64,000 bases of DNA. Origin: a virus. The position numbers and the translations under genes are program-made. The notes below the pieces were generated by a model, which saw only the letters and a list, made by a program, of their open reading frames with translations, was not told the DNA's origin and made no database searches. Below, in pieces: positions 51,918 through 61,143 of this stretch; within the stretch, counting starts at the first letter, position 1, and each line of letters begins with the position of its first letter. Location: positions 33,369 to 97,368 of IMG/VR virus record IMGVR_UViG_3300025276_000026. The stretch is one strand, 5' to 3'.

Positions 51918-52631
51918 CTATTTCACCAAGGGGTTGCCTAGGGCATCTAAATTGAAAATAAATTCATCTATTGATGGTGGAGTATCTTGGGCGTCTCTTC
52001 TATCCGAACCTGCGTTCCCAATATGATGTACTCTTGAATTGAATGATATACTGTATCTTTCTTTGTCGGTAGGATTAGGTTCTACCATATGCATTGCACC
52101 ACTAGGAAACAATACAAGTCTTCCTCTAACTGGCATGTATCCGATACTCTCTTGATTTCTAGCAACGGATGGATGGTCTGCAACAACTTTAGGGTCACAG
52201 TTGATTAACTGAAGGTCTCCCTCGTCACCGTCTCCGTGTATGTAAAAGACTCCACTGTACCAACAACCATTATGTAAATGTGGTGTATTCCATGCACCCT
52301 TGTCATTGATGTTTGCCCATGTGTTATCTATTTTGACTTGTGCATCGTCGGGATGAACTCTAAAGAATTGTTGTACTTCATCTCTCAACGTAGCTTCAAT
52401 ACATCTAATAATCTTTGCAAAGGCTGGATGTTTTTCAACACCATCTTGTGATTGCCAACCAGTATATCTATTTGATATCTGTCTACCCTTCGGGTCTCTT
52501 CTTCTCCACTCATCCATTTCTTTCTTAAGAGATATTAAGTATTCTTCTGATACTGAATCTTTACCATACCTTTCTTGGTCTAGTAAGTCTCTCTCAAATA
52601 TGAATGTGGGGAATGCTAATCTAACTGACAT
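51918..52631 (-). CDS. 2OG-Fe(II) oxygenase-like protein, HxH form
   Basis: About 237 aa. WANINDKGAWNTPHLHNGCW, YSGVFYIHGDGDEGDLQL, GRLVLFPSGAMHMVEPN and RYSISFNSRVHH follow a family of putative 2OG oxygenases that have H-x-H in the first ligand position instead of H-x-D. The start at 52631 has GGAG 6 bases upstream. Substrate unknown. Confidence 0.8.
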   Translation of the reverse strand: MSVRLAFPTFIFERDLLDQERYGKDSVSEEYLISLKKEMDEWRRRDPKGRQISNRYTGWQSQDGVEKHPAFAKIIRCIEATLRDEVQQFFRVHPDDAQVKIDNTWANINDKGAWNTPHLHNGCWYSGVFYIHGDGDEGDLQLINCDPKVVADHPSVARNQESIGYMPVRGRLVLFPSGAMHMVEPNPTDKERYSISFNSRVHHIGNAGSDRRDAQDTPPSIDEFIFNLDALGNPLVK

Positions 52632-53517
52632 CTTGGTCTCCAAATAATTCCAATTGTACTTCTTCTTTCTGTTCTAAGTCGGGGTTATGCATAGGACATT
52701 CGGGTGGTGGATTGTCTTCTTTAAACATCTTACCCTTCTCATTCCAATACTTAATCCTTCTGTATGCACCTGCCATACCTTCGATATGTCTCTTCTCTTC
52801 TCTGAGTTCGGGTGACCTATTCCACTCATCCATGGTCTTAAGTTTACTACCGTCTTCACCTTCTCTATGAGTGGTTCGAACGGAACGATTCTCTTGCCAT
52901 GATTTATTGTCGTATGTTATGTATGATGCTGTCCAATCTTCTCTTCTGTAAGGTATTATTTGAACTAAGGGTGTGCCTGCTTTGATTGTGAAATCTTTGT
53001 CTGTTCTAGGATAGAAAATAATCTGAGAGTTATCCATGTTAACATTGAATGCATCTGTATCAATCATACCTTGCCATGTTGCAAAATACTTATTCTGAAA
53101 TAGGAATGGGTCTAGATATAGACAAGAATAGCCAGGCGGTGTGATAATGTTCCAAGGTGCTTTCATCTTGAATGCATCCCTTGTTGGTGCATCATCCTCG
53201 TGTAAGTATGTAAAGTGATGACCTGCTTGAGCAGCTGGATGTGTTGGGGATGATAATGAATCTCCCTTATCGGTATTTGCAGCTGAGGAGTTTGGACTTA
53301 CTTTAACTTCCATATCTCTCTTTGCACATATTAACCAACCAGTTTTTAACCAGTCATCCATAGCAGGACATGACCTTAGAGTCTGTGCCTTTTGTCCACG
53401 AATATTCTGTTGCACCTTCATGGTCTTCCACCAATCGGGTTGAATGGATTTTGCAAGAACTGGTCTCCAGTTCTCTACCGTTTCCTTATCGTATGTGGTG
53501 AATTCTATCGTAGGCAT
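52621..53517 (-). CDS. Unknown conserved protein within an oxygenase cluster, 298 aa
   Basis: Not recognised. It has a WWKTMKVQQNIRGQKAQTLR segment with a single Cys near CPAMDDWLKTGWLICAKRD, then KMKAPWNIITPPGYSCLYLD, PLVQIIPYRREDW and a C-terminal CPMHNPDL. The PWNIxTPPGYS pattern recurs in marine phages and bacteria. It overlaps an oxygenase gene at each end (11 and 32 bases), so it probably works with them, perhaps as another cupin-like enzyme. Confidence 0.65.
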   Translation of the reverse strand: MPTIEFTTYDKETVENWRPVLAKSIQPDWWKTMKVQQNIRGQKAQTLRSCPAMDDWLKTGWLICAKRDMEVKVSPNSSAANTDKGDSLSSPTHPAAQAGHHFTYLHEDDAPTRDAFKMKAPWNIITPPGYSCLYLDPFLFQNKYFATWQGMIDTDAFNVNMDNSQIIFYPRTDKDFTIKAGTPLVQIIPYRREDWTASYITYDNKSWQENRSVRTTHREGEDGSKLKTMDEWNRSPELREEKRHIEGMAGAYRRIKYWNEKGKMFKEDNPPPECPMHNPDLEQKEEVQLELFGDQDVS

Positions 53518-54208
53518 CTTCCCCCCAGTTTACTTTGAGACTAATTTCGTCTCCTCTTATTACTAAAGAACGTCTATCCATGTATCGTGCTTTAGGTGAA
53601 GGTGCATCAGCACCATGTGGTATTCTTCCATCAAATATTAACAGTCTATTTGGTTTAAAATAAACCTCTTGTGTTTGATGATTCTTAATGTGGTCTGCTC
53701 TTCCATGTATTCCTTGTTGCATTTCATCATACAATCTTAAAGAACCACCCCATGAGTCATTCCAAAATCTATTAGGATAGTATAGGAATGAAAGATTCCA
53801 ATCATCTTGCATATCACAATCTGCATGTGTAGTTCCTTCAAGTCCTTGAGTCTGAGAATTCAAACCAAAGTATTGAAACCTCTCCCACATAAATCCAAAG
53901 TCTGTTTGGAGTTTTCTATTTAACCAAGCCATTAGATATGTGTCTCTAGGTTCCATACCATCTTCTATTTTTTGGTCATGACCTCTGAAGAAACCTGCTC
54001 CCCAAAAACTATGATGAGGTAATCCTGTAGGACTATCTCCTCTAACTTGATTAGTTTTTGCCCAGTAACTTTTCTGTGTGATGGATTCGTCAATTCTATG
54101 ATGCATAGTTTGACCTAGATAATCATCTAGGACATATACCTTTTGTAAAGGCATATCTTTAATATGAAAGGGTTCGTTGATGAACTCTAACTCAACATCA
54201 TCATACAT
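53486..54208 (-). CDS. 2OG-Fe(II) oxygenase-like protein
   Basis: 240 aa. H128 and D130 (THADCDM), then DDWNLSFLYYPNRFWNDSWG, GGSLRLYDE, distal H198 in DGRIPHGADAP and R213 in RRSLVIRGDE. This is a complete 2OG site. Part of the oxygenase cluster between neck and fibre genes, which suggests modification of a virion or surface component. Confidence 0.8.
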   Translation of the reverse strand: MYDDVELEFINEPFHIKDMPLQKVYVLDDYLGQTMHHRIDESITQKSYWAKTNQVRGDSPTGLPHHSFWGAGFFRGHDQKIEDGMEPRDTYLMAWLNRKLQTDFGFMWERFQYFGLNSQTQGLEGTTHADCDMQDDWNLSFLYYPNRFWNDSWGGSLRLYDEMQQGIHGRADHIKNHQTQEVYFKPNRLLIFDGRIPHGADAPSPKARYMDRRSLVIRGDEISLKVNWGEDAYDRIHHIR

Positions 54209-54211
54209 TGA

Positions 54212-54772
54212 CTAAACTCTTCTAGTATCTTCGGGTGCGTAAGGTGAAGGTATTTCACTCACATAAGAATCAAAGTCTTTCAAGAAATCTTCTCTTGTAG
54301 ATTGTATCTCATTTGCAAGTTGGTCTAGAACACAATTGGCTGCATCTGCATATTCCATTACTCTTCTAGCGTTGTTTCTATGAGGATGGTTAGACCCTTC
54401 TCTTCCAGCATACATTGTTTCTGCAAGAGTATCAAAGTTATACTGTAAACATTCCTGTTCAACGTATTGTTTAGTTTGTCTGAAAAGAGATTCAACATAT
54501 TGTTGATTGAGACTATGACCCATAGGTGGTTCACTGTTCTCAATATACTGTTCAATCATTTCACACTCTTCTTTCGAAAGTGCTACTTTTGTTTGTTGGT
54601 CAAATGATAGACCGTCTTCGTAATTGACTATCTTAACTTCGATATCGTCATAGACGATAACATCGAAATCAAAGTCAAAGGCTGGTTTGTCGACATTCTG
54701 ATAGTCGTATTCTAGTCCGTTTGGTTTACGGATGAATAACGTTCCGTCACTGTCGTATATAAATGCATTCAT
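54212..54772 (-). CDS. Unknown protein, 186 aa
   Basis: Not recognised. MNAFIYDSDGTLFIRKPNGL then a beta-rich first half (IVYDDIEVKIVNYEDGLSFD), a helical second half with ARRVMEYADAANCVLDQLAN. It lies between the oxygenase cluster and the glycosyltransferase. N-terminal beta plus C-terminal helices resembles fibre-assembly chaperones in general shape only. Confidence 0.55.
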   Translation of the reverse strand: MNAFIYDSDGTLFIRKPNGLEYDYQNVDKPAFDFDFDVIVYDDIEVKIVNYEDGLSFDQQTKVALSKEECEMIEQYIENSEPPMGHSLNQQYVESLFRQTKQYVEQECLQYNFDTLAETMYAGREGSNHPHRNNARRVMEYADAANCVLDQLANEIQSTREDFLKDFDSYVSEIPSPYAPEDTRRV

Positions 54773-54804: not shown

Positions 54805-56379
54805 TTAGTCGCCAATTGGCAACTTTCTTTTCCATTTTAAAAAGTCTTCAAGATTATTTATGGTGCTATAATCCATCCCTTTTACCCAAGGGCCACCACG
54901 TGTGTAGTGAATCCCGCTGTAGTTATATTTCTCTTCGTGATTATCGTATCCTTCTACGAAGATATAGTGTTCGGGTATCTTGGATATCTTCTCCGTCCAC
55001 TCAAATTGGTGTAACTGTTTTCCTGTCCATGTATTAACTACTTCGGGTGTTAACTTCTTACAGTCTTCATGACCATTGTTGAACACCATCATACTAGACC
55101 AAAGTTTCCTAGGGTAATCTATGTTAACCTCACCATCAAACTTTGTCTCATCATGTTTGTATTGTGGATACTGAATACATGCAACAGCATCATTAGGGTT
55201 TAAGTAGTAGAACATTGGTAGTATACTCTTCTTAAAGATGAAATCATCATCAATAAAGATACTAAATCCTTCATAGTTCTCTAAGTAAGGTATTAAGAAT
55301 CTACTGTATGTAAACTCAGTACTTTGATTTGCATACTCTCTAGTATACTCTTCAATCTCTGCAATGTCAAGTATTTTAACTTCGGGTGCCCAATGACATT
55401 GGTCATGCATCCATCCTTTACCAAAGCCTTGTTGAATACTTTCTAAGATTGCATACTTAGATACTTTTGATAAGTCTCCATGTCTACTGTCATGACCGAT
55501 ATAGATTGTAAGTGGTTTACCTTTTGCAAGGTCAAACATCTGTTTGTTGAATTCATGTACTTCATCTCTGAAATCTAAATCCATCAATGCAGTATTGTAT
55601 TCGATACACCCATCCACGTATGTACATGAGATATGATATGGTTTATTTAATCTTTCACACTTATTATACCACATCTGTAATACGCTGTCAAGGCTTGATG
55701 GTTCTACTTTGACCACATCATAACTATCTAAGACCATGATTTCCATATCATTATCTTGCAACTCTTCAAAGACACCCGAACGAATAGAGCCTGGATGTAT
55801 TCTAAAGGTATAAGTAGGTTCAGTATTCAAACCAGTAATACCATTCTCAATTACGTAACCTTGAATAGGAGCTCTAAGACCTTCTTCTTGAATACTCTGA
55901 ATTAACCAATGTGCTTTTGCACCATGATAATACATTGATAGTAATGAACCTTCTGACTGTTCATTTCTGTCTACACCTTCCCAATCGATTAATGTGTCTA
56001 AATTAACATACCCATCTGCATCTTTCATGTCCATTCCAGCATGGCCTGGAATTGGTGTCCTAGGTTTCTCTGCATATCCTACTGGTAAAAACTTGTTATA
56101 TATTACGGATTCATTTCTAAGACCATTGAACCCACCAAATCTATTGTCCTTTCTTAGATACTCAAAGTCTTTCCACTTTGCAACTTTTACTGGGGGTAGA
56201 ATTTCATCGAACAACCATTCTAATATCTTGTATGATTCTTTGGTTTTATCTATGCTATCGAGATTAAAAGCACCTAGATGATAGGGCCCAAGGGATTGTC
56301 TGTCTTGTGACGTAAGATTTTTCCAATCTTGTTTTGAGATAAGTTCTTTCGCTTGTTCTAAGGTCTCAATTTTCTGCAT
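54805..56379 (-). CDS. ParB-like / glycosyltransferase fusion protein
   Basis: 524 aa. The middle has a ParB-like stretch (IQEEGLRAPIQGYVIENG, then TFRIHPGSIRSGVFEEL). The C-terminal half has a nucleotide-sugar glycosyltransferase pattern: LTIYIGHDSRHGDLSKVSKY, then FTYSRFLIPYLENYEGFSIF with the metal motif IDDDF. It may add sugar to virion proteins, since it neighbours fibre genes, or to hydroxymethylated DNA, since ParB-like domains occur in base-modification systems. Shine-Dalgarno GGAG and an upstream CTAAATA box are present. Confidence 0.75.
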   Translation of the reverse strand: MQKIETLEQAKELISKQDWKNLTSQDRQSLGPYHLGAFNLDSIDKTKESYKILEWLFDEILPPVKVAKWKDFEYLRKDNRFGGFNGLRNESVIYNKFLPVGYAEKPRTPIPGHAGMDMKDADGYVNLDTLIDWEGVDRNEQSEGSLLSMYYHGAKAHWLIQSIQEEGLRAPIQGYVIENGITGLNTEPTYTFRIHPGSIRSGVFEELQDNDMEIMVLDSYDVVKVEPSSLDSVLQMWYNKCERLNKPYHISCTYVDGCIEYNTALMDLDFRDEVHEFNKQMFDLAKGKPLTIYIGHDSRHGDLSKVSKYAILESIQQGFGKGWMHDQCHWAPEVKILDIAEIEEYTREYANQSTEFTYSRFLIPYLENYEGFSIFIDDDFIFKKSILPMFYYLNPNDAVACIQYPQYKHDETKFDGEVNIDYPRKLWSSMMVFNNGHEDCKKLTPEVVNTWTGKQLHQFEWTEKISKIPEHYIFVEGYDNHEEKYNYSGIHYTRGGPWVKGMDYSTINNLEDFLKWKRKLPIGD

Positions 56380-56416
56380 GATGTCTCCATAATATCTGTC
56401 CTATATTTAGGTAGAC

Positions 56417-56441
56417 AAAAAAAACCCCTCTTTCGAGGGGT
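56417..56441 (-). terminator. Terminator after the first repeat protein gene
   Basis: On the minus strand ACCCCTC and GAGGGGT pair with a GAAA loop and TTTTTTTT follows. Nearly the same stem as the terminator at 38771. Confidence 0.9.
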
Positions 56442-56469
56442 CTTTATTCACTGTCGGGTAAGTTCCTAC

Positions 56470-57588
56470 CTATGCTGAAATTGGTGTTGCAGGCCACTGT
56501 TGTGAACCAACTCCATCCCATCTTGCTTCGGGGGTTTGACCCTGTCTTGCATATGTGAACGGACTTCTATGTTGGTACGTAAACGGTGTCTGACCAGTTC
56601 TATTGTAAGTAAACGGACTTCTATGTTGATATGTGAAAGGTGTTTGACCTTGTCTAGCATATGTACTAGGAGACCTGTGACTGTACGTAAACGGTGTCTG
56701 TCCAGTTCTTTGATACGTAAACGGTGTTTGTGCATTTCTTATATTAGGTTCTTGACCTGTTGCGATATAAGGGAAGTTAACCGCTGCATTTCTTATGTTA
56801 GGTTCTTGTGCATTTACAGGGTTTCTATAAGTGAACGGTGACCTATGTTGATAAGTAGCAGGTTGTCTAGCATTAGAAGGGTTCTGATAAGTGAACGGAC
56901 TTCTATGGTTATACGTAAACGGTGACTGACTGTTTCTAATATTAGGTTCCTGTGAAGAACGGATATTAGGTTCTTGGTTGTTTCTAATATTAGGCTCTTG
57001 TGCAGATACAGGGTTTCTGTAAGTGAACGGTGACCTATGGTTGTACGTAAATGGTGCTTGGTTATTCCTAATGTTAGGTTCTTGTATAGACCTAATGTTC
57101 GGTTCTTGAATACTTCTAATGTTAGGCTCTTGTGCAGATACAGGACTTCTGTAAGTGAACGGTGACCTGTAGTTGTACGTATATGGTGACCTATGGTTGT
57201 AAGTACTAGGTTGTCTTGCATTATTAGGCTGTCTTGCATTTGCAATATACGGTTGTCTATATGTAAACGGTTGCCTTGCACTGTTAGGTTGTCTTGCATT
57301 TGCAATATACGGTTGTCTATATGTAAACGGTTGTCTTGCATTATTAGGCTGTCTTGCACTTACTGGATGTCTGTATGTAAACGGATTCTGAAACGTAAAT
57401 GGATTCTGTCCATTTGCTGGATATCTTGCGTTATATGTAAATGGTGCTTGGAATGTAAATGGTTGTTGAGCATTCGCAGGGTATCTTGCACTATATGTAA
57501 ACGGTTGCTGTGATATCGAAGGCGACCTTACGTTCACACTCGACTGAGCATTACGGATATTCGGTTGTTGTCTGTACCCTATTGGCAT
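56470..57588 (-). CDS. Heptapeptide-repeat protein, 372 aa
   Basis: Almost all of the protein is built from 7-residue units of form [R/Q]-x-P-[F/N/S/Y]-[T/I]-[Y/R]-x, for example RSPFTYN, RSPFTYR, QEPNIRN, RQPNNAR, PYIANAR. Only the first 15 residues (MPIGYRQQPNIRNAQ) and the last 15 (GVGSQQWPATPISA) differ. No Cys, few acids. A regular proline every seven residues suggests an extended or solenoid fibre. Likely a virion surface or adhesin protein; its partner follows upstream. Confidence 0.7.
   Translation of the reverse strand: MPIGYRQQPNIRNAQSSVNVRSPSISQQPFTYSARYPANAQQPFTFQAPFTYNARYPANGQNPFTFQNPFTYRHPVSARQPNNARQPFTYRQPYIANARQPNSARQPFTYRQPYIANARQPNNARQPSTYNHRSPYTYNYRSPFTYRSPVSAQEPNIRSIQEPNIRSIQEPNIRNNQAPFTYNHRSPFTYRNPVSAQEPNIRNNQEPNIRSSQEPNIRNSQSPFTYNHRSPFTYQNPSNARQPATYQHRSPFTYRNPVNAQEPNIRNAAVNFPYIATGQEPNIRNAQTPFTYQRTGQTPFTYSHRSPSTYARQGQTPFTYQHRSPFTYNRTGQTPFTYQHRSPFTYARQGQTPEARWDGVGSQQWPATPISA
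56520..57570 (-). repeat. 21-bp tandem coding repeats, array 1
   Basis: The DNA shows imperfect 21-base units encoding the heptapeptides, with wobble-position variation between copies. Because unit length is a multiple of three, gains or losses keep frame. Two other frames also stay open, giving false long frames. Confidence 0.8.
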
Positions 57589-57636
57589 CTTAATAGTCCT
57601 GTTAAATTATTTGTCATTGTCATATGTCTCATCAGC

Positions 57637-58887
57637 TTACGGCTCATAATAGTTAGGACTTCCGCCACCATAGGCAAAGTAGTATGTAAATGGTGACCTA
57701 TGTTGATATGAACTAGGTGATTGTGCAATACTTGGAGTCTGAACATTCACCGACGAACGAGCATTGGCAATGTAAGGGACTCTATATGTAAACGGATTCC
57801 TTGCACTATTAGGTTGCCTTGCGTTAGCAATGTATGGTTGTCTATAAGTAAACGGTTGTCTTGCACTATTCGGTTGTCTCGCATTACTTGGTTGTTGATA
57901 AGTAAACGGTGCTTGGAATGTGAAAGGACTCTGTCCATTTGCTGGATACCTACTGTTGTAAGTAAACGGTGCTTGGAATGTAAACGGTGACTGACCATTT
58001 GCTGGATACCTACTGTTGTAAGTAAACGGGGCTTGGAATGTAAACGGTGACTGACTGTTTCTAATATTAGGTTCTTGAATACTTCTAATGTTAGGTTGCT
58101 GAGCACTCACTGGGTTTCTATATGTAAATGGAGACCTATGGTTGTACGTAAACGGTGACCTATGGTTGTATGTGTAAGGAGACCTGTGATTGTATGTACT
58201 AGGTTGTCTTGCGTCTCTTATGTTAGGTTGCTGTGCATTTACAGGGTTTCTATAAGTGAACGGTGACCTGTGGTTATACGTTGATGGTGACCTATGGTTA
58301 TAAGTAAACGGACTTCTGTGTTGATACGAAGCAGGTTGTCTTGCTTGACGTATGTTAGGTTCTTGTCCATTCACTGGGTTTCTGTAAGTGAAAGGAGTCT
58401 GACTATTACGTATGTTAGGTTCTTGTCCGTTTACTGGGTTTCTATATGTAAATGGAGACCTATATTGATAAGTAACAGGTTGTTGACCTACATTATTGTA
58501 AGTAAATGGAGACCTATGTTGATACGTACTAGGTTGTCTTGCATTAGCAATGTAAGGATACGGTTGTTGTGCAGACCTAATGTTAGGTTCTTGGTTGTTA
58601 GCAATGTACGGATACGGTTGCTGTGCATCTCTTATGTTTGGTTCTTGTCCAGTTGCAATATAAGGATACGGTTGTTGTGCATCTCTTATGTTTGGTTGCT
58701 GACCAGCTGCAATGTATGGATATGGAATTTGCGTTGCAGTTTGCCCTGACGCATTATTCCATCCAGTAGGAGTCTTAACATAAATTTGGTCGACGGCCTT
58801 CCATGTAGTAGAACCTGTCTTTACCCATGCACCTTGAGTTGAATTCCAACCCGACGGTGTTTTGACCTTTTGTGAACCTGTTGCCAT
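57637..58887 (-). CDS. Heptapeptide-repeat protein with unique N-terminal head, 416 aa
   Basis: Residues 1-65 form a non-repeat head (KVKTPSGWNSTQGAWVKTGS, YVKTPTGWNNASGQTATQIP: two copies of a W-containing module). Then heptapeptides: QQPYPYI-A-type units near the head, later RSPFTYN, QQPNIRD, ARQPSTY units, ending FTYYFAYGGGSPNYYEP. The head may attach the protein to the virion and the repeats form a shaft. Paralogue of 56470-57588. Confidence 0.7.
   Translation of the reverse strand: MATGSQKVKTPSGWNSTQGAWVKTGSTTWKAVDQIYVKTPTGWNNASGQTATQIPYPYIAAGQQPNIRDAQQPYPYIATGQEPNIRDAQQPYPYIANNQEPNIRSAQQPYPYIANARQPSTYQHRSPFTYNNVGQQPVTYQYRSPFTYRNPVNGQEPNIRNSQTPFTYRNPVNGQEPNIRQARQPASYQHRSPFTYNHRSPSTYNHRSPFTYRNPVNAQQPNIRDARQPSTYNHRSPYTYNHRSPFTYNHRSPFTYRNPVSAQQPNIRSIQEPNIRNSQSPFTFQAPFTYNSRYPANGQSPFTFQAPFTYNSRYPANGQSPFTFQAPFTYQQPSNARQPNSARQPFTYRQPYIANARQPNSARNPFTYRVPYIANARSSVNVQTPSIAQSPSSYQHRSPFTYYFAYGGGSPNYYEP
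57660..58730 (-). repeat. 21-bp tandem coding repeats, array 2
   Basis: Same 21-base repeat type as array 1, with long near-identical blocks shared between the two genes (for example three tandem units around 57900-58060), so recombination between arrays is possible. Confidence 0.8.
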
Positions 58888-58938
58888 TTAGTTATCCATT
58901 AATTATATTGTTATTTATTAAGATTCTAAACCCCTATT

Positions 58939-61143
58939 TTAGGAGTATAGAACCCACATGTCACCAACCGCTCCATCACCACTTGTAGGTGCTGAAGTTG
59001 ACTGGTACATATTTCTTGCAGTTCCACCACTATTAGATGCATTTGTTATTGACAATGCTCCTGTAGATACTGCCGAAGGGGTTACTGATATCGCTCCAGT
59101 TGAAGCACCAGTTGCAGAAGTTGTACCGAATACAAATCCTGTTGCACTGTCGTCCCACCCCATAAATACGTTACTCTCACTTCCTCTCTCAATCACTATA
59201 CCTGCGTCGTTTGAAGGACTGCCTGTAGTTCCGTTTCCTAACTCAATCAATGAGTCTGTCATTGTTGTGTTAGTAGAACTTACTGTAGAAGTAGTTCCGT
59301 TAACTGTTAAGTTTCCACTTAGTACCATGTCTGCAAACGTTACGTTACTTGAAGTAGCAACTGCCTGTCCGATGGATATTGCACCACCACTAAATCCGAC
59401 ACCAGTACCAGCACTTAGTTGAGCTCTTACATCTGAAGCAGTAGGGCCGTCATAAGTATATGCACCTGTTGAAGCGTTGTATGCAAGTCCACCAATTCCG
59501 TTTGAAACTGCTGAATGTAATGCTCTGATTTCTCCATCTGTACTACCAGTAATGGTAAGTGTTCCAGCTGCGTCATTGTAAGTTTTTGTGATGTTAGTGC
59601 CTGCAGTAATAACTGCATTCATTCTGTCATCTACTTGTTCTTGGTCTAAAGCATCTGTTGCAATAGTAAGTGTTCCAGCACTGTCATCATATGTTGATGT
59701 GATGTTTGCACCGTCTGTGATTAAAGTATTAACTCTATCGTCAACTCTCTCATCTGTGTAGTATAAGTTTCCACTCTCACCAACGTGAGATGTGTTTAAA
59801 GTGACCGCTGCTCCTAGAGCAACTGCTTGTGAGTTAATTGTAACTGAAGAGTTGGAAAGTTTTGCGTTTGCAATTGAACCTGCTAACATGGCATTAGTAA
59901 TACCAGTTGCTTTTACTCTTAGTGTATCTGAATTTGTTTCGATTGAACTGTCATCTACTGTTACGGATAGAACACCACTTGAGTGTCCAAGACCGTCACC
60001 TGCTACTGAAGCATCTAGGTTTAGGGTTGCATCTCCCGAAGTAGCACCACCTGTTAGACCGTCACCTGCGATAACACCTGTGATGTCCGCTGCGTTTCCG
60101 TCAATAGTAAGTGTTCCAGCTGCATCATTATATGTTGCAGTGATGTTTGTACCACCAACAACTAATGCACCGACTCTGTCGTCGACTCTTTCGTTTGTGT
60201 AGTAAAGGTTACCACTCTCTGTGATTCCACCAGTATTTAATGTGATGTTTGCTGTACCGTCGAATCCAACACCCGAGATAGTTCTTGAACTTGCAAGTGC
60301 TGTAGCAGTTCCTGCTAGGCCTGTTGTATCTTGGTTAAGTGTTGCAACTGTAAAGTCTAATGTGTTGTCTGCATCTTGATAAGCTACTGTAATACCACTT
60401 TCAGCATTACTTGTTACCATTGCTCCGACTGTATCTGCGATAAATTCTGCGTCTACTGCAAGGTCTATTGTTCCGTCTGCATCGTCATATGTTACTGCAA
60501 TACCTGTTTCAGTATTTGAACTGAACATTGCACCAGCAATATCTTGAACTCTTTCTGAAGTATGATAAAGGTTAGTTGAACCTTCTGTTAAACTGTCTGT
60601 GTTTGATGAACTTTCATCTACTAATTTTCTCCATGAACCAGCATGAGCAAAGTACCCTTTTCCTGTTCCATGAACATGAGCAAACATACCATGGTATGTA
60701 CTTGCACTAGGTAAGTCACCTTCTGCACTATACATGTTAGCAAACAATACTTTGTTACCACCCATGTCGAGGTCTGAACCATCGATACTTGCTCTAATAG
60801 CAGTCATGTCAGCTTCAATAGTATCTGCATTAACTGTGATACCTGTTCCAGCACCAATGTTTAATGTAGCATCTCCACTAGATGCAGTACCAGTTAAACC
60901 AGCTCCTGCGTTAACTCCAGTGATATCACCTTGTTGTCCATTCAGTGTAAGTGTTCCTGCTGAATCGTCGTAAGTTGCAGTAATTCCTGTTCCACCAACG
61001 ATTAATGCATTGACTCTATCGTCAATTGCTTCGTTTGCAGCGGTACCAAAAGCAGCTGCTACTAGGTCACCCGAACTGTCTAATACATCGTTCGTTCCTA
61101 CTGATAAACCATTCTTAAGTATAAAATTCTTTTCGCCTGCCAT
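58939..61143 (-). CDS. Tail fibre-like structural protein, 734 aa
   Basis: The N-terminus GEKNFILKNGLSVGTNDVLD resembles the start of the next protein. Long runs of repeated modules follow: GTGITATYDDSAGTLTLNG, NLYYTDERVDDRVNTLI, TYNDAAGTLTI. C-terminus STSAPTSGDGAVGDMWVLYS is typical of marine phage fibre proteins. Probably a trimeric beta-rich fibre for host contact. Confidence 0.8.
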   Translation of the reverse strand: MAGEKNFILKNGLSVGTNDVLDSSGDLVAAAFGTAANEAIDDRVNALIVGGTGITATYDDSAGTLTLNGQQGDITGVNAGAGLTGTASSGDATLNIGAGTGITVNADTIEADMTAIRASIDGSDLDMGGNKVLFANMYSAEGDLPSASTYHGMFAHVHGTGKGYFAHAGSWRKLVDESSSNTDSLTEGSTNLYHTSERVQDIAGAMFSSNTETGIAVTYDDADGTIDLAVDAEFIADTVGAMVTSNAESGITVAYQDADNTLDFTVATLNQDTTGLAGTATALASSRTISGVGFDGTANITLNTGGITESGNLYYTNERVDDRVGALVVGGTNITATYNDAAGTLTIDGNAADITGVIAGDGLTGGATSGDATLNLDASVAGDGLGHSSGVLSVTVDDSSIETNSDTLRVKATGITNAMLAGSIANAKLSNSSVTINSQAVALGAAVTLNTSHVGESGNLYYTDERVDDRVNTLITDGANITSTYDDSAGTLTIATDALDQEQVDDRMNAVITAGTNITKTYNDAAGTLTITGSTDGEIRALHSAVSNGIGGLAYNASTGAYTYDGPTASDVRAQLSAGTGVGFSGGAISIGQAVATSSNVTFADMVLSGNLTVNGTTSTVSSTNTTMTDSLIELGNGTTGSPSNDAGIVIERGSESNVFMGWDDSATGFVFGTTSATGASTGAISVTPSAVSTGALSITNASNSGGTARNMYQSTSAPTSGDGAVGDMWVLYS

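Follow-up and report, generated by a model that had tools for sequence, protein, structure and literature searches.

Even-spaced proline repeats in two neighbouring proteins of uncultured T4-like phages, candidates for virion appendages

Two neighbouring genes of an uncultured T4-like phage encode proteins, here called A and B, that consist largely of proline repeats with a strict preference for even spacing, and the same spacing was found in a third protein, C, of related loci. We hypothesize that A and B, together with C, are late virion appendages with a beta-type shaft of even-length words, which would be hydroxylated and maybe glycosylated and the length of which would be tuned by recombination. 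As a complete model, this is given about an even chance of being right.

The analyzed DNA, referred to as the window, is a stretch of 64,000 nt that comprises bases 33369–97368 of the 97.4-kb IMG/VR record IMGVR_UViG_3300025276_000026, and its last position, 64000, is also the end of the record. Terminase, portal, tail sheath, scaffold, and major head protein were all found together with T4-type replication genes, showing that the virus is T4-like. In its major head protein, the virus shares 67% identity with Methylophilales phage Melnitz and 66% with Pelagibacter phage HTVC008M. IMG/VR contains at least 160 relatives of the repeat proteins, all of them from T4-like phages. Relatives were also present in two contigs, L092 and L093, that have been binned as Sphingobacteriales and Flavobacteriales MAGs, which is either a hint at the host or a case of mis-binned phage contigs.

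ORF analysis and translation placed A (416 aa) at positions 57637–58887 and B (372 aa) at positions 56470–57588, both on the minus strand, and the repeats extend over more than 300 residues in each protein. The initial annotation had described two neighbouring repeat proteins of this kind, one of them with a distinct N-terminal head containing tryptophan modules, and all of these points held. The head of A (MATGSQKVKTPSGWNSTQGAWVKTGSTTWKAVDQIYVKTPTGWNNASGQ; 58741–58887, minus strand) comprises residues 1–49 and contains three VKT..W-type modules. It is conserved, with a mean pairwise identity of 82% among 31 representatives and with invariant columns in the alignment, and beta strands were predicted for it by AlphaFold2 at low confidence. 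It is followed by the even-spaced proline repeats (about residues 50–400) and by a short GGG-rich tip that ends with EP. B has no separate head, but carries a conserved C-terminal tail, RWDGxxxQxWPxTPI, the motif residues of which form invariant columns among the B homologues. The proline content of the two proteins is 13–15%. Both shafts are rich in P, Q, N, R, Y, S, A, and T, while K, C, L, M, and W are absent from them.

Across the IMG/VR loci, 71 alleles of A were present. They combine the fixed head with an exchangeable tip, which belongs to one of three classes: short and often glycine-rich (most alleles), variable with about 150 aa, or Hint-like. The Hint/intein-like tips (L022:8001-9962, L029:8001-9617, L065:8001-9413, and L076:8001-9512) scored below the Pfam cut-offs; such domains might let the fibre tip cleave itself or become cross-linked. 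The tip of about 150 aa co-occurs with an extra gene of 90–100 aa between A and B, the product of which is possibly a fibre chaperone or a tip partner; this gene was seen in L034, L039-L043, L045, L048-L052, L055, L060, L062-L063, and L070-L072. C, the third protein with even-spaced proline repeats, is encoded about 8 kb upstream of A and beyond the window end (L001:2-892, plus strand). It has a conserved C-terminal KVKG...VPxAQ module, and most loci that extend far enough have it upstream.

The repeat unit turned out not to be the heptapeptide, encoded by 21 bp, that had been assumed at the outset: residue identity at lag 7 was at the background level (0.03–0.04), the spacings were 6, 8, and 10 residues, and there was no 21-bp period. 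Of the 54 spacings between consecutive prolines in A, 24 measure 8 residues and 20 measure 6; spacings of 2 and 10 occur four times and once, respectively, and a spacing of 7 is absent. B had 20 spacings of 8, 20 of 6, and five of 10, and its single spacing of 7 was located at the N-terminal edge. Accordingly, 53 of the 55 prolines of A and 48 of the 50 prolines of B have the same parity. The residue autocorrelation peaked at lags of 6, 8, 18, 20, 36, and 44 and reached 0.23–0.28 at lags 8, 20, and 44, compared with a maximum over all lags of 0.14–0.15 for shuffled sequences. At the DNA level, Tandem Repeats Finder reported periods of 18, 24, 54, 60, and 132 bp and one of 30 bp, none of them being 21 bp.

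The even spacing was general among the relatives. In the set used for the parity statistics (52 distinct A, 45 distinct B, and 27 distinct C proteins), 91–95% of the proline spacings of up to 20 residues were even, compared with about 47% in shuffled proteins. When each distinct inter-proline word was counted only once and only within the repeat region, all 368 words of B, 383 of the 399 words of A, and 456 of the 501 words of C had an even length. Words of 2, 4, 6, 8, 10, and 12 residues occur, and odd lengths are nearly absent. With the prolines masked, identity within A and B was still 0.11 at even lags versus 0.05 at odd lags, a roughly twofold difference. The shaft consensus is [QR]-x-P-x-[TI]-x-[NQRS]-x, and the alternate positions are enriched in Y, F, A, S, and N. 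A two-residue register would be expected of an extended beta-type chain; polyproline or collagen would give threes. A collagen-like phage fibre with Gly-X-Y triplets was considered as a candidate and rejected, as shaft glycine amounts to about 2% and there is no period of three.

The proteins had been proposed to be novel, and this was borne out by the absence of any credible family, PDB, or isolate-phage match. Pfam and PHROG contained no credible relative of A or B, a PDB sequence search with A gave none, and no account of these proteins was found in the literature. Likewise, tblastn and blastn searches of 50,697 GenBank phage records with the whole protein and with the head alone yielded nothing credible, although the low-complexity filter may mask short matches in these searches. 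The parity test detected no even-spaced repeat proteins in HTVC008M (whole) or in the analyzed parts of Mosig and Melnitz. A scored above the curated cut-off of the Trappin/cementoin family (PF10511; 43.2 versus 27 bits) because of its hexamer-like GQEPN... words, and B scored below it (21.7 bits). Membership of A in this family was rejected as a case of convergence, the resemblance being local (about 25 residues): the shafts consist of mixed words of 6, 8, and 10 residues and have no lysine for cross-linking, whereas the family is characterized by lysine-containing GQDPVK hexamers that are transglutaminase substrates. AlphaFold2 with 26 homologues of A gave no confident fold (mean pLDDT 37); such a result is often seen with obligate oligomeric fibres, and with disordered proteins as well.

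The arrays change in length by whole units. A 132-bp (44-aa) unit at approximately 56994–57126 (minus strand) is present as a single copy in the window and as two copies in contig L001; A and B of the two align without mismatches, a single 132-bp gap after base 462 of B being the only difference. A of L004 and L017 differs by 264 bp without any mismatch, and B of L014 and L011 differs by 132 bp. All gaps within the arrays of close alleles were multiples of 6 bp (12, 24, 54, 60, 132, and 264 bp), and gaps of 1, 3, and 4 bp between alleles were confined to a region near the C-terminal end. The expected expansion and contraction of the arrays was thus observed, close relatives differing by whole units of 54, 60, 132, or 264 bp. 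Identical words are encoded in many ways: the 13 copies of PFTY in A have nine DNA spellings, and the 17 copies in B have 11, which indicates that the arrays are old and have been selected as protein.

The initial annotation had also predicted exchange between the two arrays by way of long shared DNA blocks. Shared blocks do exist, but they are not long, the longest exact block having 38 bp. The exchange itself is supported, as A and B from the same genome share seven times more 20-mers than A and B from different genomes (means of 39.7 and 5.7; none of 5000 permutations gave a value as high). In addition, the word usage of A was more similar to that of B from its own genome (0.25) than to that of A from other genomes (0.17). 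This sharing within genomes indicates concerted evolution of A and B. A solenoid structure and a variation of host range by way of the arrays, which the initial annotation had also suggested, are speculative.

The genomic position is fibre-like, as had been suggested, A and B lying between tail-fibre genes and gp13/gp14. The gene order is C, structural proteins, tail fibre, A, B, glycosyltransferase, a protein without assignment, prolyl-hydroxylase-like oxygenase, PHROG 7084 protein, second oxygenase, gp13, gp14, and gp3, and with few exceptions the 79 IMG/VR loci and two MAG contigs share it, according to a gene listing that omits some overlapping ORFs. The gene directly upstream of A (58939–61143, minus strand) encodes a tail-fibre/YadA-type structural protein of 734 aa, which matches PHROG 697 and 9729 as well as cyanophage structural proteins with a YadA domain. 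A motif scan revealed a T4-type late-promoter-like box, AATAAATA, about 32 nt upstream of A (58912–58919, minus strand), and a late-type box, NATAAATA, was present at a distance of 28–42 nt before A in 17 of the 32 distinct sequences compared. Downstream of B, a terminator-like hairpin with a T run is located at 56420–56445 (minus strand), and RNA folding of 56400–56470 gave z = −3.6. A late promoter and a position among fibre and neck genes are traits of T4-like fibre proteins, and the A/B locus agrees with both. In T4, gp12 (short tail fibre) and wac (whiskers) are located immediately ahead of gp13. From the position, the late-type box, and the terminator, A and B are read as late structural proteins.

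Downstream of B follows a cassette of five minus-strand genes, of which the hydroxylase-like and glycosyltransferase-like ones had, like C, been overlooked in the initial annotation. The first (54805–56379) encodes a glycosyltransferase-like protein of 524 aa that matches PHROG 28018 (E 7e-41) and has a GT8-like C-terminal half. It missed the curated cut-off of glycosyltransferase family 8 (PF01501; 20.4 versus 24.3 bits), and 11 of 24 orthologues matched this family at E 0.01 or better. Residues 1–280 form a conserved N-terminal half without a family. A repeat protein was located directly upstream of the glycosyltransferase gene in all 121 loci with enough upstream DNA, which came from 158 loci fetched by a glycosyltransferase or oxygenase query and are close kin, not independent cases. 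Among the loci keeping this pairing, the glycosyltransferase has diverged down to 42% identity. The second gene (54212–54772) encodes a conserved protein of 186 aa that has no family and is linked to the cassette by locus comparison; no GenBank phage relative of it was found.

The third gene (53486–54208) encodes a 2OG-Fe(II) oxygenase that is prolyl-4-hydroxylase-like and scored above the cut-off of PF13640, a family that was also matched by 23 of 23 orthologues. H128, D130, H198, and R212 are invariant in all orthologues. In a PDB profile search with the oxygenase family, a prolyl 4-hydroxylase was ranked first (E 1.2e-4), followed weakly by HIF prolyl hydroxylases and Tpa1. The AlphaFold2 model of the oxygenase had a pLDDT of 82, and its best Foldseek match was PHD2 (E 9e-7, TM about 0.5), a protein that is over-represented in the PDB. 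Judged by its HxD...H...R site and the DSBH fold of the predicted model, this oxygenase is nearest to the protein prolyl hydroxylases. It is a member of PHROG 274, which is labelled DNA endonuclease V, yet it has the fold and the active site of a 2OG oxygenase, and its structural matches include cyanophage proteins that carry the name DNA endonuclease V. The label of PHROG 274 looks like a misannotation.

The last two genes encode a PHROG 7084 protein (52621–53517), assigned by its PHROG match and locus linkage, and a second 2OG-Fe(II) oxygenase (51918–52643; PF13759). Profiles of the glycosyltransferase family and of the PHROG 7084 family had no match in the PDB. HTVC008M, covered in full, and those regions of Mosig and Melnitz that were analyzed do not have the cassette; the exceptions were one distant glycosyltransferase (31%) and some distantly related proteins for the second oxygenase. 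In marine T4-like phages, 2OG oxygenases are numerous, and several were seen at the same locus in HTVC008M and Mosig without such repeats.

Under the proposed model, A, B, and C would be virion proteins of uncultured T4-like phages that are expressed late and form long, thin fibres or whiskers. The shaft would be assembled from words that have 6, 8, or 10 residues and one proline each, and would probably be oligomeric. With an even word length, each side chain keeps its face in an extended beta-type chain, and an odd insertion would flip the faces. The head of A would serve for attachment and its tip would be exchangeable, and B would contribute the RWDG...WP motif conserved at its C-terminus. 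Shaft prolines would be hydroxylated by the neighbouring prolyl-hydroxylase-like oxygenase, and the neighbouring glycosyltransferase may then attach sugars to the shaft. Recombination between units and between both arrays would shift the shaft length by whole words. The virion location, the beta structure, and the two modifications are what we infer for A and B. Two proteins with 13–15% proline, encoded beside a prolyl-hydroxylase-like and a sugar-transferase-like enzyme, hint at a fibre that carries hydroxyproline and perhaps sugars; proline hydroxylation of A and B is probable, and their glycosylation by the neighbouring enzymes may perhaps occur as well.

Several other explanations have to be weighed against this model. 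A and B might be disordered, sticky spacer or brush proteins rich in Arg and Tyr, located on the virion or in the cell and without a regular fold. The shaft composition, the AlphaFold2 result for A, and the lack of a PDB relative would fit such proteins; however, parity should not matter to a disordered chain, and yet it holds for hundreds of distinct words in all three proteins and the indels in the arrays preserve it, so that disorder is considered unlikely. It could also be imagined that the arrays mainly reflect the dynamics of repetitive DNA, i.e., slippage and unequal exchange, that parity is a founder effect, and that length is neutral. The variation of 132-bp and 60-bp units among near-identical contigs and the swapping of sequence between A and B are in line with this, and descent from a small set of even-length words may explain the even spacing in part. 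Nevertheless, the many DNA spellings per word show that the words were kept as protein, and odd words are nearly absent from the range of 2–12 residues, and the C-terminal end does show gaps of 3 bp; we regard DNA dynamics as the main explanation as very improbable. The length differences themselves might be assembly artefacts. For the duplicated unit in B of L001 a collapse is possible, because the copies share 131 identical bases, which is enough to collapse in a short-read assembly. For L004/L017 and L014/L011 it is unlikely, because the longest exact match is only 51 bp (at the offset of the difference) and 43 bp, respectively, which is normally resolvable, and artefacts are judged to be an improbable cause of the length differences in general.

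A further explanation concerns the substrate. The oxygenases and the glycosyltransferase might act elsewhere, on the host surface, on nucleotides, or on other virion proteins, and their adjacency to A and B might be inherited gene order. This explanation draws on the oxygenases at the same locus in phages without repeats, and the linkage is confined to one phage lineage, so inherited synteny instead of function is possible. Furthermore, the glycosyltransferase match below the Pfam cut-off and the terminator between B and the glycosyltransferase gene speak against modification of A and B by the cassette. On the other hand, the pairing has been kept in all of the judged loci despite the divergence of the glycosyltransferase, and the oxygenase adjoining these proline-rich proteins is of the prolyl-hydroxylase-like type. 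Action on other substrates is therefore seen as a serious possibility that falls somewhat short of an even chance.

The proposed appendages share several features with gp12 and wac (fibritin whiskers) of T4, namely the place between baseplate/tail-fibre genes and gp13/gp14, the late-type box, and, for A, the layout of head, shaft, and tip. In contrast to these proteins, to which no sequence relation was found, the shaft of A and B is an even-word proline repeat and not a coiled coil or one of the known fibre motifs. A virus-encoded prolyl 4-hydroxylase has been described for chlorovirus PBCV-1; it acts on proline-containing peptides, and its viral role is unknown (PMC7019647). PBCV-1 infects an alga, whereas the candidate substrate described here adjoins the enzyme gene and belongs to a bacterial virus lineage. 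Tandem-repeat proteins of Borg elements are, like A and B, in-frame, fast-changing, proline-rich, and located on mobile DNA; they are described as disordered and as arising independently at each locus (PMC9879509), whereas the A/B family is conserved in place and has a strict even-residue register. The combination of proline-rich repeats, a prolyl hydroxylase, and sugar transfer is, as a principle, also that of the plant hydroxyproline-rich glycoproteins (extensins and AGPs), but A and B have no Ser-Pro4 or Ala-Pro motifs and no homology to them, and their modification is a prediction.

As a sequence law, the parity rule is simple, strong, and testable; it applies to a protein family that has no known relative and is found in many uncultured T4-like phages, and the many natural variants can be used to infer a fibre fold that is as yet unknown. 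For the 2OG oxygenases, a group that is common in marine phages and for which few targets are known, the conserved neighbours provide a concrete hypothesis on the substrate. The most far-reaching version, a new class of fibre that unites a beta shaft with a two-residue rule, a phage-made hydroxyproline-glycoprotein, length tuning by paired genes, and plug-in tips including Hint-like ones, is put forward as a speculative proposal with a low chance of being right in full. Should both the shaft with its parity code and its modification be confirmed, A and B would represent a new structural class of phage fibre.
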